From: Planctomycetota bacterium
GTDB lineage: Bacteria; Planctomycetota; UBA1135; GCA-002686595
Direction of reading: 5' to 3'
DNA: 64,000 bases
Assembly: GCA_014238415.1 (NCBI GenBank)
Contig: JABABA010000018.1
Location: 23,679 to 87,678, forward strand
The notes under the pieces: model-generated
What the model saw: only the letters and a program-made list of their open reading frames with translations
Databases searched by the model: none
Told to the model about the DNA's origin: nothing
Shown here: one piece after another, positions 21,338 to 37,924 of the stretch
How the letters are laid out: each line of letters begins with the position of its first letter
Position numbering within the stretch: position 1 is the stretch's first letter
Translations under genes and position numbers: made by a program

Positions 21338-22003
21338 CTAGCCGATTGAACGACTGAACTCCGGCCTGAAGCGATTGAGAACCGCCCCCAGAAAGTGAAC
21401 TCCAGCGCCCTCTATGCGTATGCGCGCTTCCGCAGCATCCGCCTTCAAGCTGACTCGCGCACGAGCCACCAGGATGACCGCATCCACACTGTCCAAGAGA
21501 GCGGTTGTGGAAGCCTCAGTCAGGATAGGTGGACTATCAATCAGAATCACCCCTGCAGAGTTCGACAACTCAGCAAGCGCACTCTTGAAAGCATCGCCGG
21601 CGAACTCTCCAGCCAAGGGTGAGCGCTTGCTGCCTGGGGGCAGCACGCTGAGTTCTGGCAATCCAGGAGCAGTGTGGAGGGCTTCGGTGAGCTTCACGCT
21701 GTTACCCAATACATCCGACAACCCTGGTTCCGCAGGAACACCGCAATAGGTAGAGAGAGATGGACGCAGGAAGTCTGTTCCCAAGAGCACCGTTGGATAT
21801 CGCAAGTGACGCGCCAGGTTGACCGCGATAGACGCGGCCAACACACTGGTACCGCAGCCGCGCTCAGTACCCGTAACCAGGATACGACTCGTCGGCCGCT
21901 CGCGCACATAGTCTGCGCAACCCTTCCAGAGACTCTGCTCCAGTCCGGCAAGGCCAGATTGGGCTTGTTCGATGGGTAGCGGTTGGACTTCGTTCTGCGC
22001 CAT
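21338..22003 (-). CDS. CpsD/CapB-like tyrosine-kinase-fold ATPase with degenerate P-loop
   Basis: A 221-residue ParA/BY-kinase-fold protein downstream of the Wzz gene in the same transcription unit (3-base gap). Walker B is present (VILIDSPP, Asp near 156) and a Walker A'-like stretch is at TVLLGTDFLRP. The P-loop reads TGTERGCGTS where active BY-kinases have GxxxGxGKS/T, so the phosphate-binding lysine is replaced by threonine at about residue 52. There is no tyrosine-rich C-terminal tail. It may be a non-catalytic partner of the Wzz protein, or bind nucleotide in another way. The fold and neighbourhood are clear; kinase activity is doubtful. Confidence 0.83.
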   Translation of the reverse strand: MAQNEVQPLPIEQAQSGLAGLEQSLWKGCADYVRERPTSRILVTGTERGCGTSVLAASIAVNLARHLRYPTVLLGTDFLRPSLSTYCGVPAEPGLSDVLGNSVKLTEALHTAPGLPELSVLPPGSKRSPLAGEFAGDAFKSALAELSNSAGVILIDSPPILTEASTTALLDSVDAVILVARARVSLKADAAEARIRIEGAGVHFLGAVLNRFRPEFSRSIG

Positions 22004-22006
22004 GGC

Positions 22007-23638
22007 TCAGGTCACCTTATTTGGGCGCAACTTGCGCAAGGACTTGTATTCGTCGATCACCGCCAGCACAGGAATGTCCAGGGCTTTCTCCAGGTTCTCT
22101 CGATACCGCAGACGACGATCGCGCAATTGGCGCAGAACAGCAATAGCCATTCCCAGAGCGAATCCGCCAAAGAGACCACCTACCAGTAATTTCATCCGCT
22201 CGGGCCCAGTCTTGTCGGGCTGCAGATCCGCCGTGGTGAGGGTGCGCAGATTGCTCTCGCCCTCATCGCGGGAATCCTGAATACCCTGGTCCTTGACGAT
22301 CGCCGAGCGCAGGCGTGAAACCTCCCCCTGTTGCGCTTCGATGTCTGAACGCCAGCGAGCATGCTCGCCAACGCAACCATCCATTCGGCGGAGTCTTTCC
22401 ACCTGCTTTTCCCGAGCCTGCTGAGCTGTGGGCAACTGGGCCTCCACCCCCTCAAGATCCGCCTTGTAGACTGCGATGCTGACCTGTAATTCTAGAAGTT
22501 CCGAGTTGGGCACTATCTGGTCCACGGCAATGCCGTCATCCACCACTGGCTCCTCTTGCATCAGACGCTCCATCTCGCGGGTCAGGTCATCGATATCCTG
22601 GTTGAGCTTCCCAAGCATCTCAGCCCGGCGCACTGGATCGTTCTCGCGGTCGAAGTACTCAATGTCCTCACGCCGTTCCTTCATACGATCGATTTTCCCA
22701 AGCAGCCGAGGAATCTCGGGATTGGCCACCTGCCGCGGCAACTCGGTGACCGTGATGGTTTCGCCCATTCCCGCTGTACGTGCCTCGAGCGATCGAATGC
22801 TGACCAGTAAAGCACTCCGCCGGGTGGTCGCATTCAAGACACTATTGTCCAAAGCGCTCACAGCCTGCAACAAGCCGTCACGTTCAGCTTCCAGGTCGTA
22901 AAATCCACAGGTGCCCTTGTGCTCCCGAAAGTCCTCACCAGCCCTGCGTAGCTTCTCTTCCTGCTCATCCAAGAGAGCGGTCAGACGATTCAACTCCGGA
23001 CTGTAGTGTTCGTTGTGTTGATCGATGAATGCCTTGACCAGGGCCGTGGCTGTGAGTTGAGCATCTTCCGGAGTCCAGGCATCAGCCTGCACCACGATCA
23101 CCTGGGAGCGTCGACCGGTGAGCACGCGCGTACGGTCCATCAGGATCTCAGCAGCAGCACGGATGGCCTTGGGCTCGTTGTCCCGAATCGCTCCGCCCGC
23201 GCTTCCCACATTGCCCTGCAGGAACGCCTGCAGCCCATGCATCAGACGCGCGTGCAACAGAGTCGATGGTCCATCTTCGGCGGTGGGATCCGGGATCCGC
23301 AAGACCCAGGATGGTGTCAGGTCCTGAGCCACGCGCTCGAACACTCGAGGATCAGTCAACAGCATGATTTCGTCCTCAATCCCTGGCACCGTCCGGATGC
23401 CATCGTCAATCCCGATGGCATCGTCCGCACTGCGTGTTTCAGCAATGCCAGGGGTGTATTGCAGACGAGCCTCTGAGGTGTAGACATTGGGCTGAGAAGC
23501 CGCCAGGAAGAGACCGGTCGATGCGCCCAGGATCGTGGTCAAGAGCAGCCAGCCGCGGGACCGCAGGGCCCCGTAGAGGATTAGGACCTTAAGGTCCAGG
23601 CCACCTCCTTCACTCTCGTCTTCGAACTCGTCTCTCAT
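22007..23638 (-). CDS. Wzz-type polysaccharide chain-length determinant / co-polymerase
   Basis: A 543-residue polysaccharide co-polymerase. The short cytoplasmic N-terminus is followed by a membrane segment (GWLLLTTILGASTGLFLAAS, ~30-50), a Wzz-like start to the periplasmic domain (PNVYTSEARLQYTP), a long charged coiled-coil region (~215-450), and a second membrane segment (KLLVGGLFGGFALGMAIAVL, ~488-507) with a basic cytoplasmic tail. This is the layout of PCP proteins that set chain length and gate export together with a Wza channel and a CpsD-type ATPase, which are its immediate neighbours on the same strand. Confidence 0.9.
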   Translation of the reverse strand: MRDEFEDESEGGGLDLKVLILYGALRSRGWLLLTTILGASTGLFLAASQPNVYTSEARLQYTPGIAETRSADDAIGIDDGIRTVPGIEDEIMLLTDPRVFERVAQDLTPSWVLRIPDPTAEDGPSTLLHARLMHGLQAFLQGNVGSAGGAIRDNEPKAIRAAAEILMDRTRVLTGRRSQVIVVQADAWTPEDAQLTATALVKAFIDQHNEHYSPELNRLTALLDEQEEKLRRAGEDFREHKGTCGFYDLEAERDGLLQAVSALDNSVLNATTRRSALLVSIRSLEARTAGMGETITVTELPRQVANPEIPRLLGKIDRMKERREDIEYFDRENDPVRRAEMLGKLNQDIDDLTREMERLMQEEPVVDDGIAVDQIVPNSELLELQVSIAVYKADLEGVEAQLPTAQQAREKQVERLRRMDGCVGEHARWRSDIEAQQGEVSRLRSAIVKDQGIQDSRDEGESNLRTLTTADLQPDKTGPERMKLLVGGLFGGFALGMAIAVLRQLRDRRLRYRENLEKALDIPVLAVIDEYKSLRKLRPNKVT

Positions 23639-23653
23639 GGGGGGCCCTACGCA

Positions 23654-24364
23654 CTAATTACCGCGCGGAATGAACAAATCGGTGAAATACGGGAAAGGAA
23701 TCATGCGCCGGATCCAGGAATCCAGGAACAAGCCGGCATCATCGACGCGCGTGTTTGGTACATAGAGTACATCGTGAGCCTGCAACAGGACTGTATTGCC
23801 CCGGCCCCAGTGCTCCTCGCGGATGTCCAGCACCCAGGAACTTTGAAGCTTTGACACTGGATCAAAGCGCACCAACAGGGTGTTCCCCAGCCAGGAGGTC
23901 CTGTTGTTGGGACCACCGGCCATGGCCAAGGCCTGCAGCAAGGTCAGATCGGCCGCGACTGGAAGGATGACTTCCCCCGGTTCTGCCACCTCGCCCATCA
24001 CAAAGACCCTATTGGGTGCTTGCTGAACGACAATCACCGAGAGGGTCGAGTCCCTGCCTTCCAACATGGGTCCATAGAGTTCCTGCAACTTGTCCTGCAG
24101 TTCCTCTGGCAACAAGCCCCCGACCAGTAGCGGCCCCAAGCCAACAAAGGAGCAACGTCCATCAGACTGCACCTTTATGCTCTGGTTGAATTCACTGGCG
24201 TAACTGAACTTGATTTCAAGGGAGTCTCCAGGGGAAAGCCGGTCGAGACCCTCGTAAAGAGTTGCGTTGATCTCCTGCGCAAGGACATGCATCGCAGGGC
24301 CTTGGGGAGTGGAACAGCCCACCAGGACATGCAGAGCAGAGAAGACAAGTAAGCGAGTGAACAT
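23654..24364 (-). CDS. Wza-type polysaccharide export lipoprotein
   Basis: Outer-membrane export lipoprotein with a signal peptide ending in a lipobox (SALHVLVGC-STPQG). The Poly_export domain begins at LSPGDSLEIKFSY and is followed by a SLBB-like segment (NRVFVMGEVAEPGEVILP, LTLLQALAMAGGPNNRTS). I place the start at the ATG at 24364 because it begins a proper lipoprotein signal; the track's extension uses a TTG overlapping the end of the preceding gene. At ~236 residues it is short, without the long C-terminal helix of E. coli Wza. It leads the minus-strand unit Wza-Wzz-CpsD. Confidence 0.88.
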   Translation of the reverse strand: MFTRLLVFSALHVLVGCSTPQGPAMHVLAQEINATLYEGLDRLSPGDSLEIKFSYASEFNQSIKVQSDGRCSFVGLGPLLVGGLLPEELQDKLQELYGPMLEGRDSTLSVIVVQQAPNRVFVMGEVAEPGEVILPVAADLTLLQALAMAGGPNNRTSWLGNTLLVRFDPVSKLQSSWVLDIREEHWGRGNTVLLQAHDVLYVPNTRVDDAGLFLDSWIRRMIPFPYFTDLFIPRGN

Positions 24365-24444
24365 GAGAATCCGTATTGATGAGGCGGCTGTATCAGCCAA
24401 GAAGTGATGGTAACCGATAGCCCTTGCCCAAGAGGGTCGTTGTC

Positions 24445-27303
24445 TCAATCCAAGACACGCTCAACCCCCTGTAGAATGCCTGCCGCATCGATATGAAGGG
24501 TGCTGGGTACAGGCAGATCACCAACATCCATCAAGGCACCTAGACTCCCTTCCCGCAGCTCTGGTGAGAAAGGCGCAAAGAGCGCCTCGCCTGCGATGCC
24601 CCACTGGTCAAGCAGACGCACCGCTTCGGAACGGCGCACGCCCGGATCCACGCAAACCAGCTGCAGACGCGCCCTCGCGTCAGGATCCATGGTGGCCAGG
24701 CCGCGTACACAGGGGCTGCAGGCGCAAGACCAGAAGTGCAGGTCAACAGCGACTCCCGATGCCAGATGGCGCGCCTCACCCGCGGCGTTCTCCAAGACTA
24801 TAGGTGGAACCTTGGCTCCAATTGGCATACGCAGACCCCGGGGCCAAGGATCGCTGAGCTGGCCAGCCTCAACCTCTACAGCCCTGGGACTGCTCTCGCC
24901 CTGCACGATCAGATAGACGCCACCAGCCTTGACAATTCCCTGAGAGCTCCAGACTGCATCACCGGGCCAATGAACCTGCACCTCGGCACTAGGTCTTGAT
25001 CCCAGGCCGAAGATCAAGTTGGGCGATCCTGAGGTGGCAAATCCACTGCCACGAGCAATCACCTGAGCAACCGGCCCCGCTGGCCCCTCCAAGACCACCG
25101 TTGCGCCGATCGCCTCGGGGTGCCCCTGAGTTGCCCGCAATTGGATGGTCACCGCCCGAGATTGCGAACCGAAGTCATTGCGCCACAGTTGGTGACGCTC
25201 AGCTTGCAGGTTGTGACAAAAGAGATCCGAATCCCCGTCGCCGTCAAAATCCGCCGCCACTATTGAACGCCCATCCAGGGGAGAGTCGCTGCCCAACAGA
25301 ACCGATAGGTCACTGAAGCCTCCCCCTTCACGAGCCATGAACAAGCGATTGCGCTGACGCCCGTTGAATGAAGTCCCACTTGGGTCCATGTGCAAGGCCC
25401 AGGGGTGAAAGGCCTCCTCATCGACCTCCAGACTCTGACTGGCATCAATTGCGAAACCATGGACACCTGACTCGTGAGAGCTGGAAGACGCCACCACGTG
25501 GCGCCAATAAGCAGTTCATGTGTCCGCGGGCAACTCGCCGGTGACAAACCCGTTGGCGCAGGCGAGATCGAGGCGTCCGTCCAGGTCAAAGTCAGCTGCA
25601 ACTGTGCCCCAGGCCCAACCGGCGGCACCGGCTCCAGCGGCATCCGGCATGATTTCGAAGCCCGACCGAGTTCCCCGTAGCAAGTGATTGCCCTGGGCAA
25701 GACCGCGCAGGGAACGGGAGAGATCCCCCTCCCCAGTGAACTCCAAGGCTGCAAACATCCGGCGCCCGGTCCCGGAACTTGCACCTGCAAGGTAGAGGTC
25801 CAGCCAGCCATCCCGGTCAAAATCCCCCAGGGTGCCGCCAAAGGTCAGGCGTGCCTGAGATCCTCCGAGGCCCTGCTCATCGCGTTCGAAGCGACCGCCG
25901 CCCTTGTTACGCCAATAGCGATTGACGCCAAAGTGGTTGAGGGTCAATAGGTCCATGTCACCGTCCTGATCCAAATCTGCCGCCAAAGCCGAGGCGGTCC
26001 AATCCCGATCCTGCAAACCGGCTTGTATGGTTCCGTCTCGAAAGACAAACCCCTCTTGCCCCAGCAGCAGCCTGTCCGGCGCCCCATTGGTGGCTTGAAT
26101 CCAATTGTCGTTGCGCATGGCTTCCATGCGGCCGTAGCCCGCAACAAACAGATCCAGAAATCCGTCCCCATTGAAGTCCGCTGCGACCATGCCAAGCGCC
26201 GGCATATTTGCACCCAAGCTCGCCTGCTTGGTGACCTCGGTAAAGTGGCCCTTGCCATTGTTCTCAAAAGCCCGCAGTGGATTGCCGCCACTTTCACCCG
26301 GATTGCTCCAGCCGATTCCCCCCAAGACCAGGTCCTGGTCCCCATCAACATCAAAATCGGCGAAGACCATGCCTGTACCCCCACCCGTATCCAGCAGGCC
26401 ACACTCTTTCGCCGCCTCACGGAAGGTGCCATCGACCTGGTTCAAGTAGAGATAGCCTCGCACGGCATTGGGCAGGAACACATCGAGACGCCCATCGCCA
26501 TCCACATCCGCCACGGCCGCACCATTCCAGCCCTCACTGTCATTGCCAGGCTGCCCGAATGCGGGCCCCCTCAGATTCACAGCCGTACTGTTGGTGACGT
26601 CAACGAATCCGGCCCCTGTACGTTCCAAGTCGAAGCCCGCTTCAAGTACCGCGCGGTCCAATGTCCAGACTCCGTCCACTCGTAGAAAGGCCCCACGCAC
26701 ACGCCGTGCCAGTACCTCATGTTTTCCCCCAAGCGTGGTCCCAGCAAGCTGCACCCGGAAGGTCACAACCCCGAAGGGCGAGGGATTCCCACGCTCGAAC
26801 TCAGCCTCAAGTACATGCAATTCCGCCTGGGTCACCCGATTCCAGTTCGAAACAAGGGTGCTCAAATCCGCCAGCCAGGCCTGGCGATCCAAACCCGGAC
26901 CCTGCACTGGCTGCAGTTCTCGCTGCAGAGCCCCAAGGGGCAAAGGCTGCTCCTTGCCGGCGGCCTTCCTGCCCAGAGCGTGCCCTAGAAATTCCGGCGT
27001 CAAGTGTTGCTCAAGACCCTCTATATCGCGCACCTGCAAGCGGTCGGCAAGCTCAGTCAAGAGGTCTCCGACCTCACCCGCCAATGCTTCTGCGGTGTAA
27101 GGACCACGGATCACGCTCGTTGGCTCCGCGATATTCAAAGGTGCCTGCTCTTCCGCTGTAATCCCAGAAACGGGGCCCTGCCCAGCCCCAGAAGGCTCAG
27201 CGAGCGGGCCGGATTGATGCCCGGATAAATTCTCGTCAGTACAAGCTGCAAGAATCAGGATCGCGAGACACCACCCAGGTCGATTGACACCCTGGTAGAG
27301 CAT
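24445..27303 (-). CDS. FG-GAP / UnbV / thioredoxin-fold lipoprotein, candidate selenoprotein (in-frame TGA at 25516-25518)
   Basis: The track splits this into 25516-27303 and 24445-25497, but both halves share one frame and are separated only by a TGA and six sense codons. Read through, it is 952 residues: lipobox signal (AILILAAC), an N-terminal domain of ~180 residues, FG-GAP/VCBS repeats with calcium loops (ADVDGDGRLD, ADFNGDGFLD, ADLDQDGDMD), an ASPIC/UnbV-like domain (GSGFATSGSPNLIFGLG), and a thioredoxin/AhpC-like end (VDLHFWSCACSPCVRGL, PVPSTLHID). The TGA is codon 596, in ELPADT-TGA-TAYWRHVV. From memory of CRTAC1/UnbV-type homologues this spot resembles a [DC]SxFWRxVV segment. The second half has no ATG or Shine-Dalgarno; its GTG start lies inside the predicted hairpin. 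Selenocysteine is favoured; a nonsense pseudogene or sequencing error is the alternative. Confidence 0.72.
25487..25505 (-). promoter_or_regulatory. Candidate bacterial SECIS hairpin after TGA codon 596
   Basis: Ten bases after the in-frame TGA the mRNA can form GGCGCCAC-GUG-GUGGCGUC, eight pairs including one G-U. The apical loop GUG starts 18 nt after the TGA. As I recall the published bSECIS model, the loop should lie about 16-37 nt from UGA with a G among its first two bases; this fits. GC-rich DNA forms hairpins by chance, so this alone is suggestive. Confidence 0.6.
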
Positions 27304-27463
27304 TGCACGATCCTACCCAATCACTCAATTGGTGGGGGTGATTCACCCGAATATCAGCCCCGATCCCCACCAGAGCCTCCCTGGAGACGACAGAACCCCC
27401 CTCTGAGACGAATGAAGAGGAATCTAGGGCTCTCGCGTAGGACGGGCTACAATCAAAGCAGTC

Positions 27464-28261
27464 ATGGGCACGCAGGGTCAGCACACAGTACCCGTCAGCT
27501 TCGTTCTAGGAGCAAGCGGGACCACCGGCCAAGCCCTCGTCGAGGAACTTCGAATAGGCGCTGAGGCTCAAGGGGGTAGGGTGATCGCACACCTGCGGGA
27601 AGGCAGCCCACGTACCCCGGATCTGGTACAGCAGTTTGAAGACTGGGGCGCCGAGGTGTTGATCTCGCCCTTTGAAACCGACGCCCTCAAGACAGCCTTG
27701 CAGGATCTGGGCCCCAGCCACCTGTTCATCATGCATGGCACGACCCGTCGGCGAGCCAGGGCCGAGGGGATTCAAGGAGACCCTTACAAACTGGTCGATC
27801 TCGCTCTGACCCGCGTAGCTCTGGCAGCCTGCGATGGGCTGACCAATCTACCGCGAGTACTTTACCTCTCGGCTCAGGGCACGAGACCGCGAGCCAGGAG
27901 CCCCTACTTCCGAGCCCGTTTCGAGGCAGAGGAATCCGTACGTGCAAGCGGCCTGCCCTACACCATTGCCCGGGCACCGTTGATCCACAGCACCAACCGC
28001 AGCGACCCTCGACCTGCAGAGAGCCTGGGCGGCAGTGCCCTTGGACTGCTGGCGGGTACCCTGCGCACAGTGGGCTGCAAGCAACGCGCCGCGCACATTG
28101 CCCCGATTCAACCAGCCGAGTTGGCCCGTGGCCTGATCCACGCGGCCTTCAATTACACCACCCTGTCACGAGTGCTTGAAGCGGGAGAACTCCGCGACGA
28201 ACGCCCGATTCACAGGGCTGACCCGATCCCGGCGACCCGTCGGGACGATGCCCGCCACTAA
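27464..28261 (+). CDS. NAD(P)-binding NmrA/atypical-SDR-like protein
   Basis: A 265-residue Rossmann-fold protein. The nucleotide-binding loop near the N-terminus is LGASGTTGQALVEEL, and the middle contains VLYLSAQGTRP followed by a YFRARFEAEESVRASGLPYTIAR segment, which matches the YxxxK-like region and the GLxYTIxRP pattern of atypical SDRs that test or modify NAD(P) status. Substrate is not indicated. It is divergent from the FG-GAP lipoprotein gene across a 160-base gap and 23 bases upstream of the S1-domain gene, with which it may be co-transcribed. Confidence 0.75.
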   Translation: MGTQGQHTVPVSFVLGASGTTGQALVEELRIGAEAQGGRVIAHLREGSPRTPDLVQQFEDWGAEVLISPFETDALKTALQDLGPSHLFIMHGTTRRRARAEGIQGDPYKLVDLALTRVALAACDGLTNLPRVLYLSAQGTRPRARSPYFRARFEAEESVRASGLPYTIARAPLIHSTNRSDPRPAESLGGSALGLLAGTLRTVGCKQRAAHIAPIQPAELARGLIHAAFNYTTLSRVLEAGELRDERPIHRADPIPATRRDDARH

Positions 28262-28284
28262 CCCATGTACAGAGAGGACTCCCA

Positions 28285-29406
28285 ATGCGCCATGCACAAT
28301 CGCACGAGCAAGAAAAGGATCACGGCCAGCACACTCTTGAGGTGTTGCCCGGAGTGGTGGTTGGAGTCAACGGGCATGATGTGTTTGTGGACCTGGGACC
28401 GAGACGCCAGGGAGTGATCCAAGCGGATGCCTTCGACGGTCCCGCCACAATCGGCAGCCGCTACGACTTCGTTCTGCATGGCAGGGAAGAGAGCCTCTGG
28501 GTTCTGTCCCTGGCTGGCTCGAGGTCCATGAGTTCCTGGGTGGATGCGGAACCGGGTAACCTTGTTTCGGCACGAGTCCTACGCATGCACGAGGACGGGC
28601 TGCAACTCAAGATCGGCCGCCTGCACGCCTGGATGCCCAAGGGGCAAGCAGGGGTTCCAAAGGGTCACAACCCCTCAGAACTCATTGGCCGCACGGTACG
28701 CGTGGAGGTACTGGAAGTAGATCCGCGCCACCAGCGCGTGATCGTCTCGCGCAAGGCAGCCTTGCGCCGAGAGCGCGCAGGATTCAGCCTGCCCTCCCCT
28801 GGCGATCGGGTACAGGGACGCGTTGTGCGCCTGGAAGAATACGGTGCCTTTATCCAACTGGGTACTGGCCGCCAAGGACTGTTACACATATCCAATGTCT
28901 CCCATGAACCGGTCGAGGACATCGAAGACGTCCTACGCCTCGGAGAGTCGATCCAGGCAGTGGTGCTGCATGTGCGTGAAGGTGGCCGACGAATCGCTCT
29001 GGGCCTCAAACAGTTGAGGGAGAATCCCTTTACGCGTCTGGCCAAGACCGCATTTGAGGGCCAGATCATCGAAGGCATGGTCACCCGCATATTGCCCCAC
29101 GGTGCGCTAGTGCGCGTGGAACCAGGTGTAATCGGTCTTCTGCCCAAGAGCCAAACCGCATCGCAGAAACCACTTCGCACTCTACTGCGCCGAGACCAGC
29201 GCCTGTGCGTGCGCATTCTGCGACTAGATACGGAACAGGAACAACTGACCCTCTCCTTGCAACATGTGAACGGTGCCGCGATCGCTCCTGACGAAGCGTC
29301 CCTGCGCCAGGATCTCAGCAAGCTTGCCAAGGAACTCGGCGCCACACATGCGAGCACAAATCTCGGTCGCCTCCTGAAGAACGCTTTGCACCGGGACGCG
29401 AGCTGA
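28285..29406 (+). CDS. Four-S1-domain RNA-binding protein (ribosomal protein S1-like)
   Basis: A 373-residue protein made of four S1/OB folds at about 18-85, 95-160, 170-243 and 257-330. The third is the most canonical: GDRVQGRVVRLEEYGAFIQLGTGRQGLLHISNVS. The others are diverged but keep the pattern (GVVVGVNGHDVFVDLG; GMVTRILPHGALVRVEPGVIGLLP). It is shorter than classical S1 (usually 4-6 domains plus ribosome-docking N-terminus). It may be an accessory translation or RNA-binding factor. The start ATG follows a GAGAGGACTCCC stretch with a usable AGAGG. Confidence 0.88.
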   Translation: MRHAQSHEQEKDHGQHTLEVLPGVVVGVNGHDVFVDLGPRRQGVIQADAFDGPATIGSRYDFVLHGREESLWVLSLAGSRSMSSWVDAEPGNLVSARVLRMHEDGLQLKIGRLHAWMPKGQAGVPKGHNPSELIGRTVRVEVLEVDPRHQRVIVSRKAALRRERAGFSLPSPGDRVQGRVVRLEEYGAFIQLGTGRQGLLHISNVSHEPVEDIEDVLRLGESIQAVVLHVREGGRRIALGLKQLRENPFTRLAKTAFEGQIIEGMVTRILPHGALVRVEPGVIGLLPKSQTASQKPLRTLLRRDQRLCVRILRLDTEQEQLTLSLQHVNGAAIAPDEASLRQDLSKLAKELGATHASTNLGRLLKNALHRDAS

Positions 29407-29410
29407 GGGC

Positions 29411-31222
29411 TCAGTCCCCCAGCAGCAACTCCACCTCGCCCAGTCCCCCGCCCATTTTGGGGTCAGCTCCAGGTACGACGCTGGTCAGAGTGATACGAAT
29501 ACTGCTGACCTTGCAGGGCTCAGGCAAGGAGAGCCTGCCCTTGCGTCGTTCGTCCGAGTGCATGCGAACGACCCCGACCGCTTTTCCGTTGACCTTGACT
29601 TCCGCCTCAAAGACCCGGGGCAGGGCACCGGATTGAATCGGCCAACTGAGGGGTTGGGTCAGGAGAATCGTATCCGCGAGGATCGGGCGCTTGAGTTTGA
29701 TCCTCAAGCTTGGCTTGCGATCGGTCTGGGTCGCACGCCAGTGAGTGTGATAATCCCCATCGATAGCAAGACTCGCCGAGTGAGCAGCGTCCTTTGTGCT
29801 TGCACTCGCAGAGGCGCGCTGGCCATCCCAACGAGCCAAATCGATCAGATTCCGGGCATGCTCCTGTGCTACCTGCACCATTGGATCGAAAGCCTTGGGT
29901 TTGAATTCGACCAACATGGCCTGAGAATTGATGACCCGGGGGACCGACTCACCACTCCCCGGTCCAGTCTGATCCCCGCGGAGTGGCGCAAGCAGATGCA
30001 CCTGCGCCTGGACCTGATACTTGCCAGGCCGGGTGAGAGACTGCTCGAACTCAAAGCGCTGGGTTTCGTTGGCCTTGGTGGATTCGCTCATGATCTCTTT
30101 GACCGCACGTCCATTCACAAACCAAACAACCTTGGTGATGCGCAGGCCACGATGGACCTCCCCCGGCCAGGCGTGTAGTTCACGAAGCGGCTTGGACCAG
30201 GCGGAAATCCACATCTGGCAGGGATCTCGCCCAATTCCCTGTAGATGGATACCCCCTTCCCGCAGAGAGTGGACCTCGCGCTTGGCTGATTGACCGCTAC
30301 GGACGCCCTTGCCTGTGCTCGGACCTGTGGCCCGGTTCAGGAACAGAAGCGAGTAGGCCGTCCCAGGGAGATTCCCGGCAAAGGACCCGTCTTCCCGCTG
30401 GAGCCTGAGGATTGCAGCTGCACCCGCGCCATACCAATCCTCGCCGCCGATGCGCTCGCGACCGGTCAATGCACCAACCCTCTCGACGCCATACCAGGTG
30501 TAGAGCTGGTTCTGCGGCTCAAAGTGCCGATCGAGCCAGCGCAGCCCGCCATTGATCAAGCGGTCCCATGGAGTTGGGTCGTTGGGTGCCCCCTGCTGCA
30601 GGTGCAGTCGACAAATCGCCAGACTGCCGATCCCGGCGGCGGTCATCGACTGGCTGCCCTCGTTCCCACCCATGTGGTAGGAAAAGCCTCGGCCCTTGGT
30701 GCGATACCTACCCACGGCTCTAGCCACCGAACTCCACAGATCCGCGGGTATTGTTCCACCGGCTTTGACTCCCGCATGCAACCCAAGCAGAGCAAACTGG
30801 GTGTTTGAAAGGTCTTCCGAACCACCCGGGTAAGCCCAGGTTCCGCTCTTGCCGCGAATTTCAACCAGCGTGTCCAGCACCTGTTGCAAGCGCGGCTGAT
30901 CCTCAGGCCGACCAGCAGCTGCCAAAGCCATGGCAAGACAAGCCTGATCGTAGGTCCCGGAATGACGGGCAACTTCCAAGCGAGCCAATGCGCGAGCAAC
31001 CGTGCTGTCCTCGGGCGTAAGACCACTCTTGATCAGCGCATAAGTCAAGAGAGCTGTCTGCCCCATGCGCTCTTGCCCGCCAAATGACCCATCGAGACGC
31101 TGGATCTCCTGCAAGTACCTGACCCCAGAATCGATAGCTCGATTGACTTCCACCACAGAGGGAGTCTCGGCCTGGCCTGCAGAGGAGAGCAAGCAGCCGG
31201 TCAAAATGAGAGAAGACCACAC
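29411..31222 (-). CDS. Secreted prenyltransferase/squalene-oxidase-like repeat protein with F5/8-type C-terminal domain
   Basis: A 603-residue exported protein. The N-terminus (SLILTGCLLSSAGQAE) is a signal peptide; the LTGC could be a lipobox. Residues ~25-310 are alpha/alpha-toroid repeats of the terpene-cyclase/prenyltransferase type (GVRYLQEIQRLDGSFGG, RLQREDGSFAGNLPGTAYSLLFL), which in many secreted planctomycete proteins have no demonstrated cyclase activity, and I see no DxDD motif. Residues ~480-600 look like a discoidin/F5-8 C carbohydrate-binding fold (SASASTKDAAHSASLAIDGDYHTHWRA). It likely recognises or processes a polymer outside the cytoplasm, which is inference. It is divergent from the serine hydrolase at 31323. 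Confidence 0.8.
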   Translation of the reverse strand: MWSSLILTGCLLSSAGQAETPSVVEVNRAIDSGVRYLQEIQRLDGSFGGQERMGQTALLTYALIKSGLTPEDSTVARALARLEVARHSGTYDQACLAMALAAAGRPEDQPRLQQVLDTLVEIRGKSGTWAYPGGSEDLSNTQFALLGLHAGVKAGGTIPADLWSSVARAVGRYRTKGRGFSYHMGGNEGSQSMTAAGIGSLAICRLHLQQGAPNDPTPWDRLINGGLRWLDRHFEPQNQLYTWYGVERVGALTGRERIGGEDWYGAGAAAILRLQREDGSFAGNLPGTAYSLLFLNRATGPSTGKGVRSGQSAKREVHSLREGGIHLQGIGRDPCQMWISAWSKPLRELHAWPGEVHRGLRITKVVWFVNGRAVKEIMSESTKANETQRFEFEQSLTRPGKYQVQAQVHLLAPLRGDQTGPGSGESVPRVINSQAMLVEFKPKAFDPMVQVAQEHARNLIDLARWDGQRASASASTKDAAHSASLAIDGDYHTHWRATQTDRKPSLRIKLKRPILADTILLTQPLSWPIQSGALPRVFEAEVKVNGKAVGVVRMHSDERRKGRLSLPEPCKVSSIRITLTSVVPGADPKMGGGLGEVELLLGD

Positions 31223-31322
31223 GCAGGGCCAAGATAGGACAGGATTCGCGCGGGGTTACCCCTTGTCCAGGCTTTTTGATTCTGTGCCCGGGAACAAGGT
31301 CGAGAGCTTATCCTGCGGCCCC

Positions 31323-33431
31323 ATGCAGCGCCTCCGCAAGCCCCTGATCCTGCTGCTCGCCCTGGCCTGCGCATTCACCTGGCTGCCCCTGCATGGAATC
31401 GATGACGAACCCCTTGTGCTGACCATGCAAGGCCGGAGCTGGTCCAGCGCGGGGGTCGAAAGCAGCGGAATCACATACTCCGCGGCCGCCCGTGCCTACG
31501 GTGATCAAACCGACGGGGGGGTACTTTATACCCGTTACCAAGCAACTCCCCTGGCAGTGGAGCGAATCTGGATCGTGGGCCTTGATGACAGTCGCCTGCT
31601 GCGCGAAGTAGGGCTAGCCCTGGCCCATGAATTGACCGAGGTTCCGGGGGTGCACGAAGTGGCATGGTTTCCAAGGTCCTCCCAACCCCTGACGGTGCGG
31701 CGCACCCCAGACCTGTGGGTGATTCTGGAATTGGACTCTGTGGAGACCCTGCACCTTCCAGGATATTGCCAGGTCAAGGCAAGTGTGCGCGCGAGCATGG
31801 GCCGCGACCCCCTGACGGAACCACCGCAAGGCCCCTGGCGGGAGGCAATCAAAGGACAAAGCCTGGTCGAAACAAGTGCACGAGCCACCGGATTGGTAAG
31901 CGCCGGTGCACGCTACAAACTCATTGCCAAGAACCTGACTTATTACCTCAACCTGCCGGGCACTCTCAAAGAAGCAGTCCGCGAGCATGGTTTCATCGCC
32001 TCCCCGCCCCTGGACCCGAGCCTTACGACCTTTGATGTGCCCGACAGCTGGGGCGCAGCGGTAGGCGAGAACGCACGCGTAATCCAGGCGGGCCGTCCTG
32101 CGGGCATGGAAGGAGAAGTCCTGTGGGAATTCTCAGGCGACCCTCTGGCCCTGCTGCAACGGCTGGAGGACCTGGGTTTTATTGAAGCGCCCGCCCAATT
32201 CCCAGACACGCAGCAGACCCTTCAGCGAGAGCACGAGACCATCACCCTGACCGCACGCCAAGGGTCCGCAAATCCCAAGTCCCTGCTCCTTTGGCGACGC
32301 GCGCTCACTCAAGAGGACCTGAACCGCTGGCTGACAACTTCTCCAGCACACGAACGGGTGGGCGATGGTCTTCTGCGCAACCACTCCTGGCCCGGTTCCG
32401 AAACCAGGGCCGTGCTCAAAAAAGCGATCGCCGAGGGAGTCTTCCCAGGGACCGTTGCGATCATGGGTGGCCGCAACCAACCAGCCAGGGTCATCCTCCT
32501 GGGACAGTTGGGCCTCGACAAACTGACGGGCCCCAGGGCTACAACGCTCTGGGATCTGGCTTCCCTCACCAAAGTGGTCAGCACCACAACCCTGGCGCTC
32601 TTGCTGGAAGAAGAAGGCCTGCTCTCCCTCTCAGATCCCCTCGGCACCCACCTGCCCGAATTCCTCGCAGGTGCCCGGCAGGATTCCCCCCGCCGTCAAG
32701 TGCGGCTCGACCACCTCTTGACGCACACTTCAGGCCTGCCCCCCTGGAAACCCTTCTACACAGAAGCATCCAGCTACCAGGAACTGCTCGGGCTGGTACA
32801 ACAAGAACCTCTCGAAAACGCTCCGGGCAAGATGCGCGCCTACAGCGATCTGGGTCTGATCCTCCTAGGTGCGGCAATGGAAGCCTGCACCGAAACTCCC
32901 CTGGCAGTACTGGAACACGACCGCATCTTCCAACCACTGGGTCTCAACAGCGCCACTCGAAACCCGCTCAACCAGAATCAGTTCCTGATCGCTCCAACCG
33001 AAGAACGCGAAGAAGGGGGCTATCACCATGGGGTCGTGCACGATGAAAACTCCCGTGCAGCTGGAGGCCAAACTGCCCATGCGGGACTCTTTGCCTCGGG
33101 TCTCGACCTGGCAGCCTTCTGTCGCGAATGGTTGCGGGTGGAAAAGGACGAAGCTCGCATGTTGCCGAAGTCAGCACTGGACCGGGTCTTGAGCGGAGCC
33201 CACGGACAACGCCTCGGCTGGCAACGAGCAGGAGAGCGCTACCCGGGACTCGGGCCCCGCACCCTGTACCACACCGGATTCACTGGCACGGCCATTTGGA
33301 TTGACCCTGACCAAGACCTCTTCCTGATCCTGTTGACCAACCGGGTCCATCCCTCGCGAGAAGGCAAAGGGATCGGAGAAGCAAGGCGTGAGTTCGTGGC
33401 TGCGGCCTTGCTGGACGCCCAGCTCAGATGA
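31323..33431 (+). CDS. Exported serine hydrolase of the beta-lactamase/PBP-C family
   Basis: About 702 residues with a signal peptide (LILLLALACAFTWLPLHG). The first ~350 residues are a domain I do not recognise. The C-terminal ~350 residues are a class C beta-lactamase-like hydrolase: nucleophile motif SLTK within LWDLASLTKVVSTT, tyrosine motif YSD in MRAYSDLGLILLGA, and the third motif HTGFTG. It probably acts as an esterase, D-aminopeptidase or cell-wall amidase. I start at the ATG at 31323, since the track's longer ORF would run into the divergent gene and has no coding character there. LRLDHLLTHTSGLPP is a family hallmark. Confidence 0.87.
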   Translation: MQRLRKPLILLLALACAFTWLPLHGIDDEPLVLTMQGRSWSSAGVESSGITYSAAARAYGDQTDGGVLYTRYQATPLAVERIWIVGLDDSRLLREVGLALAHELTEVPGVHEVAWFPRSSQPLTVRRTPDLWVILELDSVETLHLPGYCQVKASVRASMGRDPLTEPPQGPWREAIKGQSLVETSARATGLVSAGARYKLIAKNLTYYLNLPGTLKEAVREHGFIASPPLDPSLTTFDVPDSWGAAVGENARVIQAGRPAGMEGEVLWEFSGDPLALLQRLEDLGFIEAPAQFPDTQQTLQREHETITLTARQGSANPKSLLLWRRALTQEDLNRWLTTSPAHERVGDGLLRNHSWPGSETRAVLKKAIAEGVFPGTVAIMGGRNQPARVILLGQLGLDKLTGPRATTLWDLASLTKVVSTTTLALLLEEEGLLSLSDPLGTHLPEFLAGARQDSPRRQVRLDHLLTHTSGLPPWKPFYTEASSYQELLGLVQQEPLENAPGKMRAYSDLGLILLGAAMEACTETPLAVLEHDRIFQPLGLNSATRNPLNQNQFLIAPTEEREEGGYHHGVVHDENSRAAGGQTAHAGLFASGLDLAAFCREWLRVEKDEARMLPKSALDRVLSGAHGQRLGWQRAGERYPGLGPRTLYHTGFTGTAIWIDPDQDLFLILLTNRVHPSREGKGIGEARREFVAAALLDAQLR

Positions 33432-33562
33432 TCCTGGAGAGACCGAATACAACTGCTCCCCATGGTTGATGCCTGCCAGGAACCCCGCAGGAAGCCGGAC
33501 AACAGAATCCAAAACCAGAATGTCCCTGGGGAAATTCGGCGGCCCCGTTAGAGTCCGGCACA

Positions 33563-34201
33563 ATGACTGATCCGACCAAGAACCCGGGGGATAATCCCGC
33601 AGAGCCCCAAGACGCACCCCCCAAGGCCAGCTCACTGATCCGCATGGCCATCGAGTTCGGGCCTCTGGTGGTCTTTTTCGCCACCCAACGCCTCACCCGG
33701 GACAGCGACCCCAAGGGCCTGGACGGGCTTTGGTACGCGACCATCGCCTTCATGCTGGCCATCACCCTCAGCGTGATCGCTGGTCGCATGATCGAGCGTC
33801 GCTGGCCCGTGGTTCCCCTGGTGACAGCGGTCTTCGTCCTGCTGCTCGGGGGCCTGACCCTGTGGCTACAGGACGAGACCTTCATCAAGATCAAACCCAC
33901 CCTGGTGAACTCCCTCTTCGCCGCCATTCTGGGCTTCGGCCTCTGGCGCGGCAGGATCTACCTGAAGGCGATCTTTGGGGAAGCCCTGCACCTCTCGGAC
34001 GAGCGCTGGAGCCGCCTGACCAAGCGCTTCATTTTTTGGTTCATCAGTCTGGCAATCTTGAACGAGATCGCCCGTCAGGTCCTGAACACCGACGACTGGA
34101 CCACCTTCAAGACCGTCGGTCTACCAGTCTTGACCGTACTGTTTATGTTGACCCTGGGGCCGCTGATCTCCCAGGAGAACGAACAACCCGAAGACAACTA
34201 G
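33563..34201 (+). CDS. yciB: YciB/IspZ-type inner-membrane septation protein
   Basis: A 212-residue membrane protein with about five hydrophobic segments and the family hallmarks FGPLVVFFATQR near the start, WLQDETFIKIKPTLVNSLFAAILGFGL in the middle and NEIARQVLNTDDWTTFK toward the end. YciB family proteins affect cell-envelope synthesis and septation; the biochemical role is unsettled. The N-terminal ~25 residues are an additional Pro-rich cytoplasmic extension. The gene converges with 34205, only 3 bases apart. Confidence 0.93.
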   Translation: MTDPTKNPGDNPAEPQDAPPKASSLIRMAIEFGPLVVFFATQRLTRDSDPKGLDGLWYATIAFMLAITLSVIAGRMIERRWPVVPLVTAVFVLLLGGLTLWLQDETFIKIKPTLVNSLFAAILGFGLWRGRIYLKAIFGEALHLSDERWSRLTKRFIFWFISLAILNEIARQVLNTDDWTTFKTVGLPVLTVLFMLTLGPLISQENEQPEDN

Positions 34202-34204
34202 GTC

Positions 34205-36550
34205 TCAAGGGAAGCTGACCCAGAAGCTCGCACCGAACATCAAGCTCGGATCCCCCGTGGAATGCATGCGTCGAGCCATGACCTCAGGATCGTCTTCCAG
34301 ATAGACCTCCTCTTCCGCATCCCCCACCACCAAGGTGATCGCCGCGTCGGGATCCACCAAACGCTCGTCCAGATAGACCCAGACCCCCTCGACTCCTTCG
34401 CCGGATACCTCAACCCGGTTGTCCCGACAGGTGGCATGCACTACGGCTCCCTCGCTGGGAGTCTCCACCGAGATCCACGCAAAGTCCTTCAGCACATTGT
34501 CACTCATGCGCCAATGCAGTTCCCGGGGCACGGTCTGGCGCACCCGCGAGACCATCTGGGTCAGATAGTCCCGATCCGGCAGACCCCCGTGCCCGTAACC
34601 TGCCTGCTCCAGATAGTCCACCCCATAGAGACCACTGTGGACGGCCTTGAGTTGTTTCATGGACTCGGCGAAGCTGCGGCACAAGTCGATGCGCCCATAG
34701 GCCGTGTCCTTCTCTCCCACCATGAAGGTGAAGCGCGTATTGGTCAGGTTCTCGCCCATGGTTTCCCCAGCAGTAGGTGCCGCCGCAGAAGAGTGCACCG
34801 CGGCAAAGCGCCAGGGAATCTTGGTGCCTATCACGAAGGCTCCGTACCCCCCGTGGCTGTAACCGATCAAGTGCACGCGATCTGCATCCACTCCTTCAGC
34901 CACCAAGAGTTGTGCAATCAGACGATTGATCAAGAGTGAGATGCGATCGTCGTAGAAACCATTCCAGGTATCGTTGGGAGCTCGCAATGCCAGATACAAG
35001 TAGCCAGAGACCTCGGGATGGTCCTTGTAATAGGTCTGCATCACCTTCCATTGACTGTCGTTGACTTCCTTTGGAACGCCACCTCCCCCGTGCATTGCAA
35101 TGACCACAGGCCAGCCCCCGACTGGCCGCTGGCCCACCGCCCTCAATGTATAAGGCGCCTCTTGCCCATTGACCTTGACCACACGCGCGAGGGCATCTGC
35201 CCGCATCCTCTGGGTACCGGCACTCCTCAGCCAGGCCTGCTCGATGCAGCCTCGAAAACCCTCCGAACCGCGACTGCGGAAGGTGGTCTCCGGAAACGCT
35301 GCGTTGGGATCGTTCTCCAGGTCCGCGAACCACTGGGCCACGACAGCCGTGGGATCCCCGCTGGCGACAAAACCCTCAGCGGACCAGAGGTTGTTGCGAT
35401 AGTGAACGACCCCCTGGTCCCGAGGAGTCTCAATGAACCATGGAAAGCTCCAGGAACCGGGCGAATCCTCCACTTGAATGAAGTACTTCTTACCTCGCAG
35501 GACCACGCACTCGAACACATCGTTGGTGTCTGCGCCTTCGCCACGGGTAATCCCCTCCACCCGGGCACGGTTATCGTGCACCAGCGTCACCGCCACGGGC
35601 ACCTCAACTCGCTTGCCACCGGGAACGTCCCTCAAGGTGATCAAGAGGCGCGCGTGGCGATCGTCGATTTCGGGCTTCTCGTCGTCTTGCACATACCGTT
35701 GGGTCACATCAACGCCGCCGACTCGACCATTCGGTTCCCAGGCCATGGGGAAAGCCGTGACCGCGCCCCAACTCACCGCAAAAATCGCCTTGAGGGGGTC
35801 CCCTTTGATGGCCCGCGCAGCGTCTCCTTCAAACCAGCCGTGATTCAATCCGCGGGCGTCGGGTTCACAGGCCCCGGTGAAATGCCAGCCCTGATCCCAA
35901 ACCTCGACCCAGGTGTGATTGCCTGGTTTCTCAGCCCAGCTTGCTGTACCAGCCAAACGAGCGGGAACACAGACTGCCCGGCAGGCATCAGCCAGGAGAA
36001 TCGAGAGCCCGGTACAAGAAGCCAGGCCTTGTTCCATGGACTCCGCAGGGCTCTGATCCGGCCGCTTCCGTTTGGTGGAGTAGCGCACACCAAGCTTGTC
36101 GAACAAGCGTTCGTTCAATCGTTGGGCCGCCTCGGCGGGTGTCTTGCAATCCGCAACCATGGGCAAGCAGAGATCTGTGAGTTCCTGACGCCAGGGATCC
36201 CGCGCCTCGGACACATGGGCGTAGGGCAGCACATGCTCGCGAAAGAGCGCGTTGGGCAGAGCCGCACCCCAGGGGACCTCTGCACGCACCTTGACCGCCA
36301 ACTCTACCTCGGCCAGTATTCGCGCTGGGGAGAGGCTGATCAGATCTGCCGTGGGCATGACGGCGATCAGGTGCCCGAGGTCCGCACGCAAGTCCTCAGG
36401 GACCTGGCTCAAACTGTCGCGCCAGAGCGCCTGGGCTGAACCCGCACGCTCAAGGGCAGCATCCAATTCCGGAGGCCAACCCTGTTCCTGTGGACTGGGA
36501 GTCAGAGCGAGCAGAATCGAAAATGAGAATTGAGCAATCATGGATTTCAA
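34205..36550 (-). CDS. Exported transglutaminase-like / alpha-beta hydrolase fusion protein
   Basis: A 781-residue protein with a probable signal peptide (MKSMIAQFSFSILLALTPSPQ). Residues ~150-260 are a transglutaminase-core domain: Cys in GLASCTGLSILLADACR and His in GNHTWVEVWDQGWHF. Residues ~470-690 are an esterase/prolyl-oligopeptidase-type hydrolase: GGWPVVIAMHGGGG, nucleophile GYSHGGYGA, probable acid in GEKDTAYGR and His in GYGHGGLPD. A small tail follows. Fusion of a cysteine-protease-like fold with a serine hydrolase suggests processing of an extracytoplasmic peptide or ester, but the substrate cannot be read from the sequence. Confidence 0.82.
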   Translation of the reverse strand: MKSMIAQFSFSILLALTPSPQEQGWPPELDAALERAGSAQALWRDSLSQVPEDLRADLGHLIAVMPTADLISLSPARILAEVELAVKVRAEVPWGAALPNALFREHVLPYAHVSEARDPWRQELTDLCLPMVADCKTPAEAAQRLNERLFDKLGVRYSTKRKRPDQSPAESMEQGLASCTGLSILLADACRAVCVPARLAGTASWAEKPGNHTWVEVWDQGWHFTGACEPDARGLNHGWFEGDAARAIKGDPLKAIFAVSWGAVTAFPMAWEPNGRVGGVDVTQRYVQDDEKPEIDDRHARLLITLRDVPGGKRVEVPVAVTLVHDNRARVEGITRGEGADTNDVFECVVLRGKKYFIQVEDSPGSWSFPWFIETPRDQGVVHYRNNLWSAEGFVASGDPTAVVAQWFADLENDPNAAFPETTFRSRGSEGFRGCIEQAWLRSAGTQRMRADALARVVKVNGQEAPYTLRAVGQRPVGGWPVVIAMHGGGGVPKEVNDSQWKVMQTYYKDHPEVSGYLYLALRAPNDTWNGFYDDRISLLINRLIAQLLVAEGVDADRVHLIGYSHGGYGAFVIGTKIPWRFAAVHSSAAAPTAGETMGENLTNTRFTFMVGEKDTAYGRIDLCRSFAESMKQLKAVHSGLYGVDYLEQAGYGHGGLPDRDYLTQMVSRVRQTVPRELHWRMSDNVLKDFAWISVETPSEGAVVHATCRDNRVEVSGEGVEGVWVYLDERLVDPDAAITLVVGDAEEEVYLEDDPEVMARRMHSTGDPSLMFGASFWVSFP

Positions 36551-36657
36551 AGGTCTTTGCCTGGGGGTGAACCATACTGTAGCGAGGTGAAACCCTGTTG
36601 GGATACTGGGGCCTTGACCCTCTCCCCCAGCGCCAGAGGAAGGTAGGCTTGAACCCC

Positions 36658-36999
36658 ATGGATCAGTCAGTCGTCATTGCCGAGGGCCTTCTGCCCAGTC
36701 TCAAGCGATCCAGAGCCCTGCTGGAGAGCGATGGACTCAGATCCAAGCTTGTGCAGCCACCGGGCTGTGACCCAAGAAGCTGAAGCCCCAGATTCTGGCT
36801 CGCGGTCGCGGGCCCCGACGCAGAGCGCGCCCGAGCGCTCCTGGATGACCACGAGCGCCAGCACATGGACCCGGCCCAACTGGCAGCCCAGGACGCGGTG
36901 GTGGACTTGGATGCAGACCTGGCCACCTGCCCCGCTTGCCTCGGAGAAATAGAAAAAGGCAACGGACGCTGCCCTGGATGCGGACTGCGATTGTTCTAG
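36658..36999 (+). CDS. Small zinc-ribbon protein, candidate selenoprotein (in-frame TGA at 36781-36783)
   Basis: The track shows only a truncated ORF ending at 36783. Reading through the TGA keeps a coding frame to TAG at 36997-36999, giving 113 residues with the TGA as codon 42. Before it: VVIAEGLLPSLKRSRALLESDGL, a beta-alpha start like DUF2007-type proteins. After it: SPRFWLAVAGPDAERARALL, the matching second beta-alpha unit, then a C-terminal zinc ribbon, CPAC (91-94) and CPGC (105-108). The TGA thus falls between two halves of one fold, in PPGCDPRS-TGA-SPR, with a cysteine five residues earlier (CxxxxU). A Shine-Dalgarno-like GGAAGGTAGG precedes the ATG at 36658. The next gene, a rhomboid, carries a DUF2007-like N-terminus. 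Selenocysteine is strongly favoured; a nonsense mutation is the alternative. Confidence 0.75.
36797..36814 (+). promoter_or_regulatory. Candidate bacterial SECIS hairpin with GGUC loop after TGA codon 42
   Basis: Thirteen bases after the TGA the mRNA can form GGCUCGC-GGUC-GCGGGCC, seven pairs including one U-G, with apical loop GGUC starting 20 nt from the TGA. The GGUC core is the SelB-contacting sequence of the E. coli fdhF SECIS loop, where it lies at a very similar distance. This is the stronger of the two hairpins. Confidence 0.7.
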
Positions 37000-37018: not shown

Positions 37019-37924
37019 ATGACCTCTTACTCGCCCGAATCCCTGGCCGTTGTCTGGGCCAGCCCCAACAAAAAAGCCGCCCAAGAAGCCGCTCTGGTCC
37101 TACGCGCTATCGGCCTTGATCACCAACTTGTGGGAGGGCCTGACGGCTGGAGTCTCTTGGTATCGAGAGAACACGCCAACCAGGCGGCTTCTGAGCTGCG
37201 GGGCTATCAAGACGAAAAGGCGGTCTGGCCACCAAAGCAGGTGCCCTTTGAGAAGGTCAGCAACGGTCGCCTTGGAGCCCTGACCTATGGACTCATGATG
37301 ATTGTTCTGTTCCCCGTAGGCCAGCAGGGCCTGGCGGGGAAGAACTGGTTTGAGGCGGGGCTCGTGGATGGAGTTCGTTTGCGCGCGGGAGAATGGGAAC
37401 GACTGGTGACCGCCCTGACATTGCACGCGGACCTGCCCCATCTCGCGGGCAACCTGCTCTTCGGCATCGGCTTTGGTGTTCTCGCCAGCCACACTCTGGG
37501 CACCGGGCTGGCCTGGTTCCTTGCCCTTAGCGCAGGCTGCCTGGGCAACTGGATCAACGTGCTGATCACCGATCCGGGCCATCGTTCCCTGGGTGCTTCC
37601 ACCGCGGTCTTCGGACTCTTGGGGGTGATGAGCAGCTACGAGTGGATTCGTCGCAAGCACCTGCCCCTGGTCGCCCTGCGTCGCATCGCGCCCCTGATGG
37701 GAGCAGGCGTGCTCTTGGGTTTCCTTGGAATGGGCAACAGCGATGGCGCCGATCAGGTGGACATCGGCGCCCATGTGTTCGGCTTCCTTGCTGGCATCGC
37801 CCTGGGAGCAACAGTCGGCTACGCACACATACCGCAGCGATTGAGCAGAAGGGGTCAAGCCTGGGCGGGTTTCGCTGCCTGTCTGCTTGTGGTGTTCGCC
37901 TGGATGGTCGCCCTCTCTCGCTAA
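37019..37924 (+). CDS. Rhomboid-family intramembrane serine protease with DUF2007-like N-terminal domain
   Basis: A 301-residue protein. Residues ~8-62 (VVWASPNKKAAQEAALVLRAIGLDHQLVG...) form a soluble beta-alpha domain like DUF2007. Residues ~85-300 are a six-helix rhomboid core: HLAGNLLFGIGFG on TM2, catalytic serine in GASTAVFG (Ser194) and catalytic histidine in IGAHVFGFLAG (His252). It should cleave membrane proteins within the bilayer. It starts 19 bases after the candidate selenoprotein gene, which is built on a similar N-terminal fold, so the two are probably co-transcribed and functionally linked. Confidence 0.9.
   Translation: MTSYSPESLAVVWASPNKKAAQEAALVLRAIGLDHQLVGGPDGWSLLVSREHANQAASELRGYQDEKAVWPPKQVPFEKVSNGRLGALTYGLMMIVLFPVGQQGLAGKNWFEAGLVDGVRLRAGEWERLVTALTLHADLPHLAGNLLFGIGFGVLASHTLGTGLAWFLALSAGCLGNWINVLITDPGHRSLGASTAVFGLLGVMSSYEWIRRKHLPLVALRRIAPLMGAGVLLGFLGMGNSDGADQVDIGAHVFGFLAGIALGATVGYAHIPQRLSRRGQAWAGFAACLLVVFAWMVALSR

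Follow-up and report, generated by a model that had tools for sequence, protein, structure and literature searches.

We analyzed a stretch of 64,000 nucleotides (hereafter the window) from a Planctomycetota bacterium, covering positions 23,679 to 87,678 of contig JABABA010000018.1 (G000:C9:23679-87678, where G000 is the source genome of 3.7 Mb in 84 contigs), and found two genes, here called gene 1 and gene 2, whose in-frame UGA codons are very probably decoded as selenocysteine (Sec) by the SelA, SelB, SelC and SelD machinery of the host. What the sequences show directly is the conservation of the recoded codons, covariation in the hairpin of gene 1, the presence of the decoding machinery and the co-occurrence of Sec with a CxxC motif in the gene-1 family. 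A bacterial selenocysteine insertion sequence (bSECIS) hairpin located just 3' of each UGA would direct Sec insertion. A preliminary description of this DNA had proposed that each gene carries one internal TGA and, past it, a hairpin with its loop 18-20 nt downstream; both frames were indeed open on either side of a single internal TGA, and the loops lie exactly 18 nt (gene 1) and 20 nt (gene 2) past the UGA. Beyond that description, we found that the gene-1 family is missing from selenoprotein catalogues and that gene 1 includes a fused thioredoxin domain. The family is probably a new one among selenoproteins, and its domain design is unusual.

Gene 1 (24445..27303, minus strand, as are all its features below) encodes an FG-GAP/UnbV_ASPIC (CRTAC1-like) lipoprotein whose C-terminus forms a ResA/TlpA-like thioredoxin domain. 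When its UGA (25516..25518) is read as Sec, the product has 952 residues, with 595 residues before Sec (U596) and 356 after it; U596 is the sole internal in-frame TGA and the terminal stop is a second TGA. The protein starts with a lipoprotein-type signal sequence containing a lipobox (MLYQGVNRPGWCLAILILAAC; 27238..27303), and lipobox-like N-termini were found in 39 of the 98 Sec members that have a complete upstream frame. Two Pfam families passed their gathering scores (PF07593, 33.8 bits against 23.4; PF13517, 149.5 against 26.9), and the UnbV_ASPIC domain spans residues 731-782 (24958..25113). For the C-terminus, the window protein alone missed the Pfam threshold of E 1e-3; AhpC-TSA was matched in 14 of 21 relatives, and a profile built from the alignment matched ResA/TlpA structures. 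Its CxxC motif (C862-S-P-C865; 24709..24720) is invariant in all 21 aligned relatives. An AlphaFold2 model (predicted local distance difference test, pLDDT, 81; predicted template modelling score, pTM, 0.84) placed the start of a helix at Sec. The closest solved structure was mouse CRTAC1 (PDB 9etn; E 8e-22, template modelling score 0.73 by target length), while the thioredoxin domain matched the folds of PDB entries 1st9, 1jfu and 2h19.

The UGA of gene 1 is conserved. A search of 61 related genomes recovered the same UGA in gene-1 homologues of most genera in the family. An alignment of 21 proteins shows no variation at U596, which is surrounded by NG[FY][VI]TGxxxxDTUSxYWRxVVAS; the motif is described more generally by NG[FY][VI]TGxxxxD[TL]-U-S-x-[YF]-WR. 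When public genomes were searched with the corresponding DNA motif, at least 115 stretches were found, and 79 of the first 80 that we checked were in-frame FG-GAP proteins. The UGA occupies one and the same column in five phyla: Planctomycetota, Verrucomicrobiota, Acidobacteriota, Latescibacterota and Myxococcota. Among 344 Planctomycetota genomes with a completeness at or near 90% or more, 48 contained the UGA motif, at 89 places, and a control search with the reversed pattern gave 0 matches.

According to the published bSECIS model, the hairpin lies just 3' of the UGA, with a G starting the loop and a spacing of 16-37 nt (PMC13188914). The features of the predicted gene-1 hairpin (25487..25505; 8-bp stem, GUG loop) fit this model, and its energy of -15.1 kcal/mol makes it more stable than shuffled sequences (z -2.1). 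One of its stem pairs is formed by the last base of an Arg codon and the opening base of the fourth codon after it and, therefore, synonymous and amino-acid-changing sites co-vary. Counted directly over 137 sequences, this pair is formed in 97.8% of them, compared to 49.7% in shuffles, as C-G (42), G-U (40), A-U (32), G-C (13) or U-A (7). In a second set of 59 diverse sequences, two-sided changes were seen in 46 cells versus 10.1 in shuffles (0 of 500 shuffles reached this value), and pairing fell from 97.5% to 18-72% once the partner was shifted by 1-3 columns. Codon choice agrees with the stem, since TCG encodes the Ser located there in 70 of 74 cases, and homologues without UGA form 0-5 of the six stem pairs, mostly 2-3. 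Applied to all 141 gene-1 sequences together, RNAalifold returned no structure, and overall folding energy was only mildly lower than after synonymous resampling (mean z -0.5), a value that we did not use as evidence.

Gene 2 (36658..36999, plus strand, as are its features) encodes a small Sec protein made of an alpha/beta domain and a zinc ribbon (CPAC...CPGC), with 41 residues before U42 and 71 after it. Its single in-frame TGA (36781..36783) falls in a modelled loop between strands 2 and 3 and is followed by a predicted bSECIS hairpin with a 7-bp stem and a GGUC loop (36797..36814). The UGA and a nearly invariant hairpin core, CTCGCGGTCGCG, are common to 30 aligned relatives, in which each helix pair is kept in 83-100% of the sequences. 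Of the gene-2 matches listed in related genomes, 38 of 40 retained the TGA, as did dozens of gene-1 relatives, which bears out the earlier argument that two such genes are hardly a product of chance. Gene 2 aligned to positions 57-171 of the 172 positions of the NF049953 (ribbon_DG_selen) profile (E 1e-16) and scored 61.2 bits with a cut-off of 130; we thus consider it a relative of DG, a predicted selenoprotein family, and not a filed member. Comparison of its predicted fold with known structures gave no significant match, and the protein is probably cytoplasmic. One homologue without UGA (G045:C75:31399-31704) has Trp rather than Cys at the Sec column.

The preliminary description had also predicted that the host decodes Sec and has a larger selenoproteome, and searches of its genome agreed with both predictions. 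We detected tRNA-Sec (73.7 bits, cut-off 47; also called by ARAGORN as tRNA-SeC with anticodon tca), SelB (344.5 bits, cut-off 242), SelA (449.6 bits, cut-off 268) and SelD (331.9 bits, cut-off 125), the latter with an in-frame TGA of its own within the usual GUxxK motif. Since both tRNA-Sec and SelB are encoded by this genome, the joint absence that could have contradicted Sec decoding does not apply. Motif and family searches identified at least five UGA genes: gene 1, gene 2, two more UnbV paralogues and selD. The two additional UnbV/FG-GAP paralogues with a Sec UGA lie at G000:C13:46957-47006 and G000:C11:234142-234191. Around its Sec, a paralogue of the source genome is identical in every letter to a named Planctomycetota record, which fits a planctomycete as the host. 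As for the organization of the machinery, tRNA-Sec, selD and selA are clustered within less than 6 kb (G000:C17:15018-20456), and selB is found elsewhere (contig C20).

What Sec may do in gene 1 is suggested by what accompanies it. A CxxC motif 220-310 residues past Sec occurs in 120 of the 125 Sec members whose chain extends for 300 residues or more beyond Sec, versus 0 of the 27 non-Sec homologues that were scored. The Sec column of non-Sec homologues is mostly occupied by Glu, Ala, Asn or His, also by Gln or Asp, and rarely by Cys: exchange between Sec and Cys was limited to three Cys forms in two genomes (DYCT[HQ]FW). The Glu, Ala and Gln forms retain the thioredoxin-like segment without its cysteines, and the Asn, His and Cys forms have no thioredoxin-like domain. 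In a tree of the family, non-Sec clades are mostly nested within Sec members and the Sec state changes four times. The source genome itself has a non-Sec UnbV paralogue (G000:C11:112047-112099) with Ala at the Sec column and with both cysteines of the thioredoxin segment lost (WAGWDDPS). Besides, one UnbV clade with Asn or His at this column and no thioredoxin domain (L070, L071, L072, L192 and L193, relative family f5) comes from SelB-positive genomes.

From these patterns we lean, with some reservation, towards a role of gene 1 as a Sec oxidoreductase of the periplasm that is recharged by the thioredoxin domain fused to it. Its product would be a CRTAC1-like beta-propeller, secreted and held by a lipid anchor, in which Sec opens a predicted helix and a CxxC thioredoxin domain follows in the same chain. 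The propeller selenolate may reduce an extracytoplasmic substrate; the CxxC domain would then reduce, in cis, the oxidized selenium (a selenenyl-sulfide or a selenenic acid) and could draw its electrons from a periplasmic thiol relay of the DsbD/CcdA type. In this scheme, Sec insertion itself, export, enzyme activity and the electron path are all steps that we infer.

Several observations weigh against our interpretation. At the level of decoding, the gene-2 hairpin is no more stable than shuffled sequences (z +0.6), so its support comes from conservation, not from stability, and one genome that is about 90% complete (G325) has the TGA motif with no SelB detected. At the level of function, most non-Sec homologues have Glu, Ala, Asn or His instead of Cys, an unusual replacement if the residue is a redox one. 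CxxC tracks Sec in three of the four changes of Sec state, a sign test that falls short of significance (p 0.25) because such changes are too few. Finally, the confidence of the structural model is low near the Sec of gene 1 (block mean of about 55).

The main competing explanation accepts Sec in gene 1 and considers the selenium of the propeller as a ligand, either metal-binding or structural, and not as a catalytic redox residue. We regard it as possible but rather unlikely. The residues seen at the column (Glu, Asp, Asn, His, Gln, Ala) are metal-binding or space-filling ones, and the FG-GAP/CRTAC1 fold is full of calcium-type DxDxDG loops, two features that speak for a ligand; on the other hand, the Sec form is linked to a CxxC in the same chain, rare Cys forms do occur, and the Ala forms would be incapable of binding a metal.

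Other alternatives concern the decoding itself. Ribosomes can misread UGA, and a programmed readthrough that inserts an ordinary amino acid (Trp or Cys, by a near-cognate tRNA) instead of Sec could find an argument in G325. We nevertheless consider readthrough very improbable: SelB was found in 47 of the 48 Planctomycetota genomes with the UGA motif versus 141 of the 296 others (Fisher p 1e-12), the hairpin matches the bSECIS model and covaries, and the host has the four sel genes, with a UGA in selD itself. A genome-wide change of code in which UGA means Trp or Gly, which would also leave frames open past the TGA, is refuted, and the preliminary description was right to discard it: TGA serves both as Sec codon and as stop within gene 1, the conserved Trp four codons past Sec is TGG in 141 of 141 members, each gene has one internal TGA only, and reading TGA as a sense codon across the window yields mostly fused or antisense junk frames. 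Equally negligible is the idea of pseudogenes, assembly errors or two adjacent separate genes, which the metagenome-assembled origin of the source might evoke, as the same TGA is present in independent genomes of five phyla, the conserved motif spans it, and the ratio of nonsynonymous to synonymous substitution rates (dN/dS) of gene 1 among close relatives is similarly low on its two sides (0.12-0.19).

Concerning the surroundings of the two genes, polysaccharide-export genes (SLBB/Poly_export, Wzz-like and tyrosine-kinase-like) are located directly downstream of gene 1 (window 21338-24448), and export and Wzz-like genes adjoin gene 1 in 9 of 30 related loci, that of the window included. A rhomboid protease gene (window 37019-37924) starts 19 bp after gene 2 and adjoins it in 9 of 30 related loci; no sequence similarity was found between gene 2 and the N-terminus of this rhomboid protein. 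Rfam searches gave nothing useful in the region, and a match to mir-383 at window 31703-31783 was rejected as a chance hit, with 28.6 bits for a gathering score of 70 and a location inside a coding region.

The 2026 catalogue of 119 prokaryotic selenoprotein families includes DG and contains no FG-GAP, ASPIC/UnbV or CRTAC1 family (PMC13188914), and NCBIfam 20.0 has no FG-GAP, UnbV or CRTAC1 selenoprotein model. Our literature search for UnbV, CRTAC1, ASPIC, VCBS or FG-GAP proteins as selenoproteins, whose scope excluded subscription journals, preprints and single RefSeq records, found nothing on point. According to its authors, the deep-Sep method can miss selenoproteins that lack Cys homologues (PMC12013277), which would explain the gap in the catalogue. 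More generally, the family seems to have been overlooked because standard annotation halts at the UGA and because current selenoprotein finders lean on Cys homologues, which are almost lacking here. On balance, we find it fairly plausible that the CRTAC1/UnbV-thioredoxin proteins form a so far unreported, phylum-spanning group of self-recharging periplasmic selenoenzymes, in which loss of Sec brings loss of CxxC and seldom a fallback to Cys. With five phyla and several copies per genome, such a family would extend known selenium biology by a Sec site that lies outside the thioredoxin fold, would suggest that Planctomycetota and Verrucomicrobiota have a periplasmic activity dependent on selenium, and would correct many truncated ASPIC/UnbV protein annotations.

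Compared to known systems, both genes resemble the SelB/bSECIS selenoproteins in their UGA, downstream hairpin, G at the start of the loop, 16-37 nt spacing and SelABCD machinery, whereas the gene-1 family differs from them in that most of its non-Sec homologues have no Cys at the Sec column (PMC13188914). Gene 2 shares Sec and a C-terminal zinc ribbon with the DG family of NF049953 (PMC12013277, PMC13188914), but it lacks the first 56 positions of the profile; the catalogued DG motif is GUxG, compared to SUSP in gene 2 and xUG[TS] in most of its relatives. Gene 1 is similar to CRTAC1/UnbV_ASPIC proteins (PDB 9etn) in its propeller and ASPIC fold, and it differs from CRTAC1 by a bacterial Sec placed after a propeller strand, where a helix is predicted to begin, and by its fused thioredoxin domain. 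This C-terminal domain is itself comparable to ResA, TlpA and CcmG in its invariant CxxC and in its profile and fold matches, but it is, unlike these proteins, fused in cis to a propeller predicted to bear Sec.

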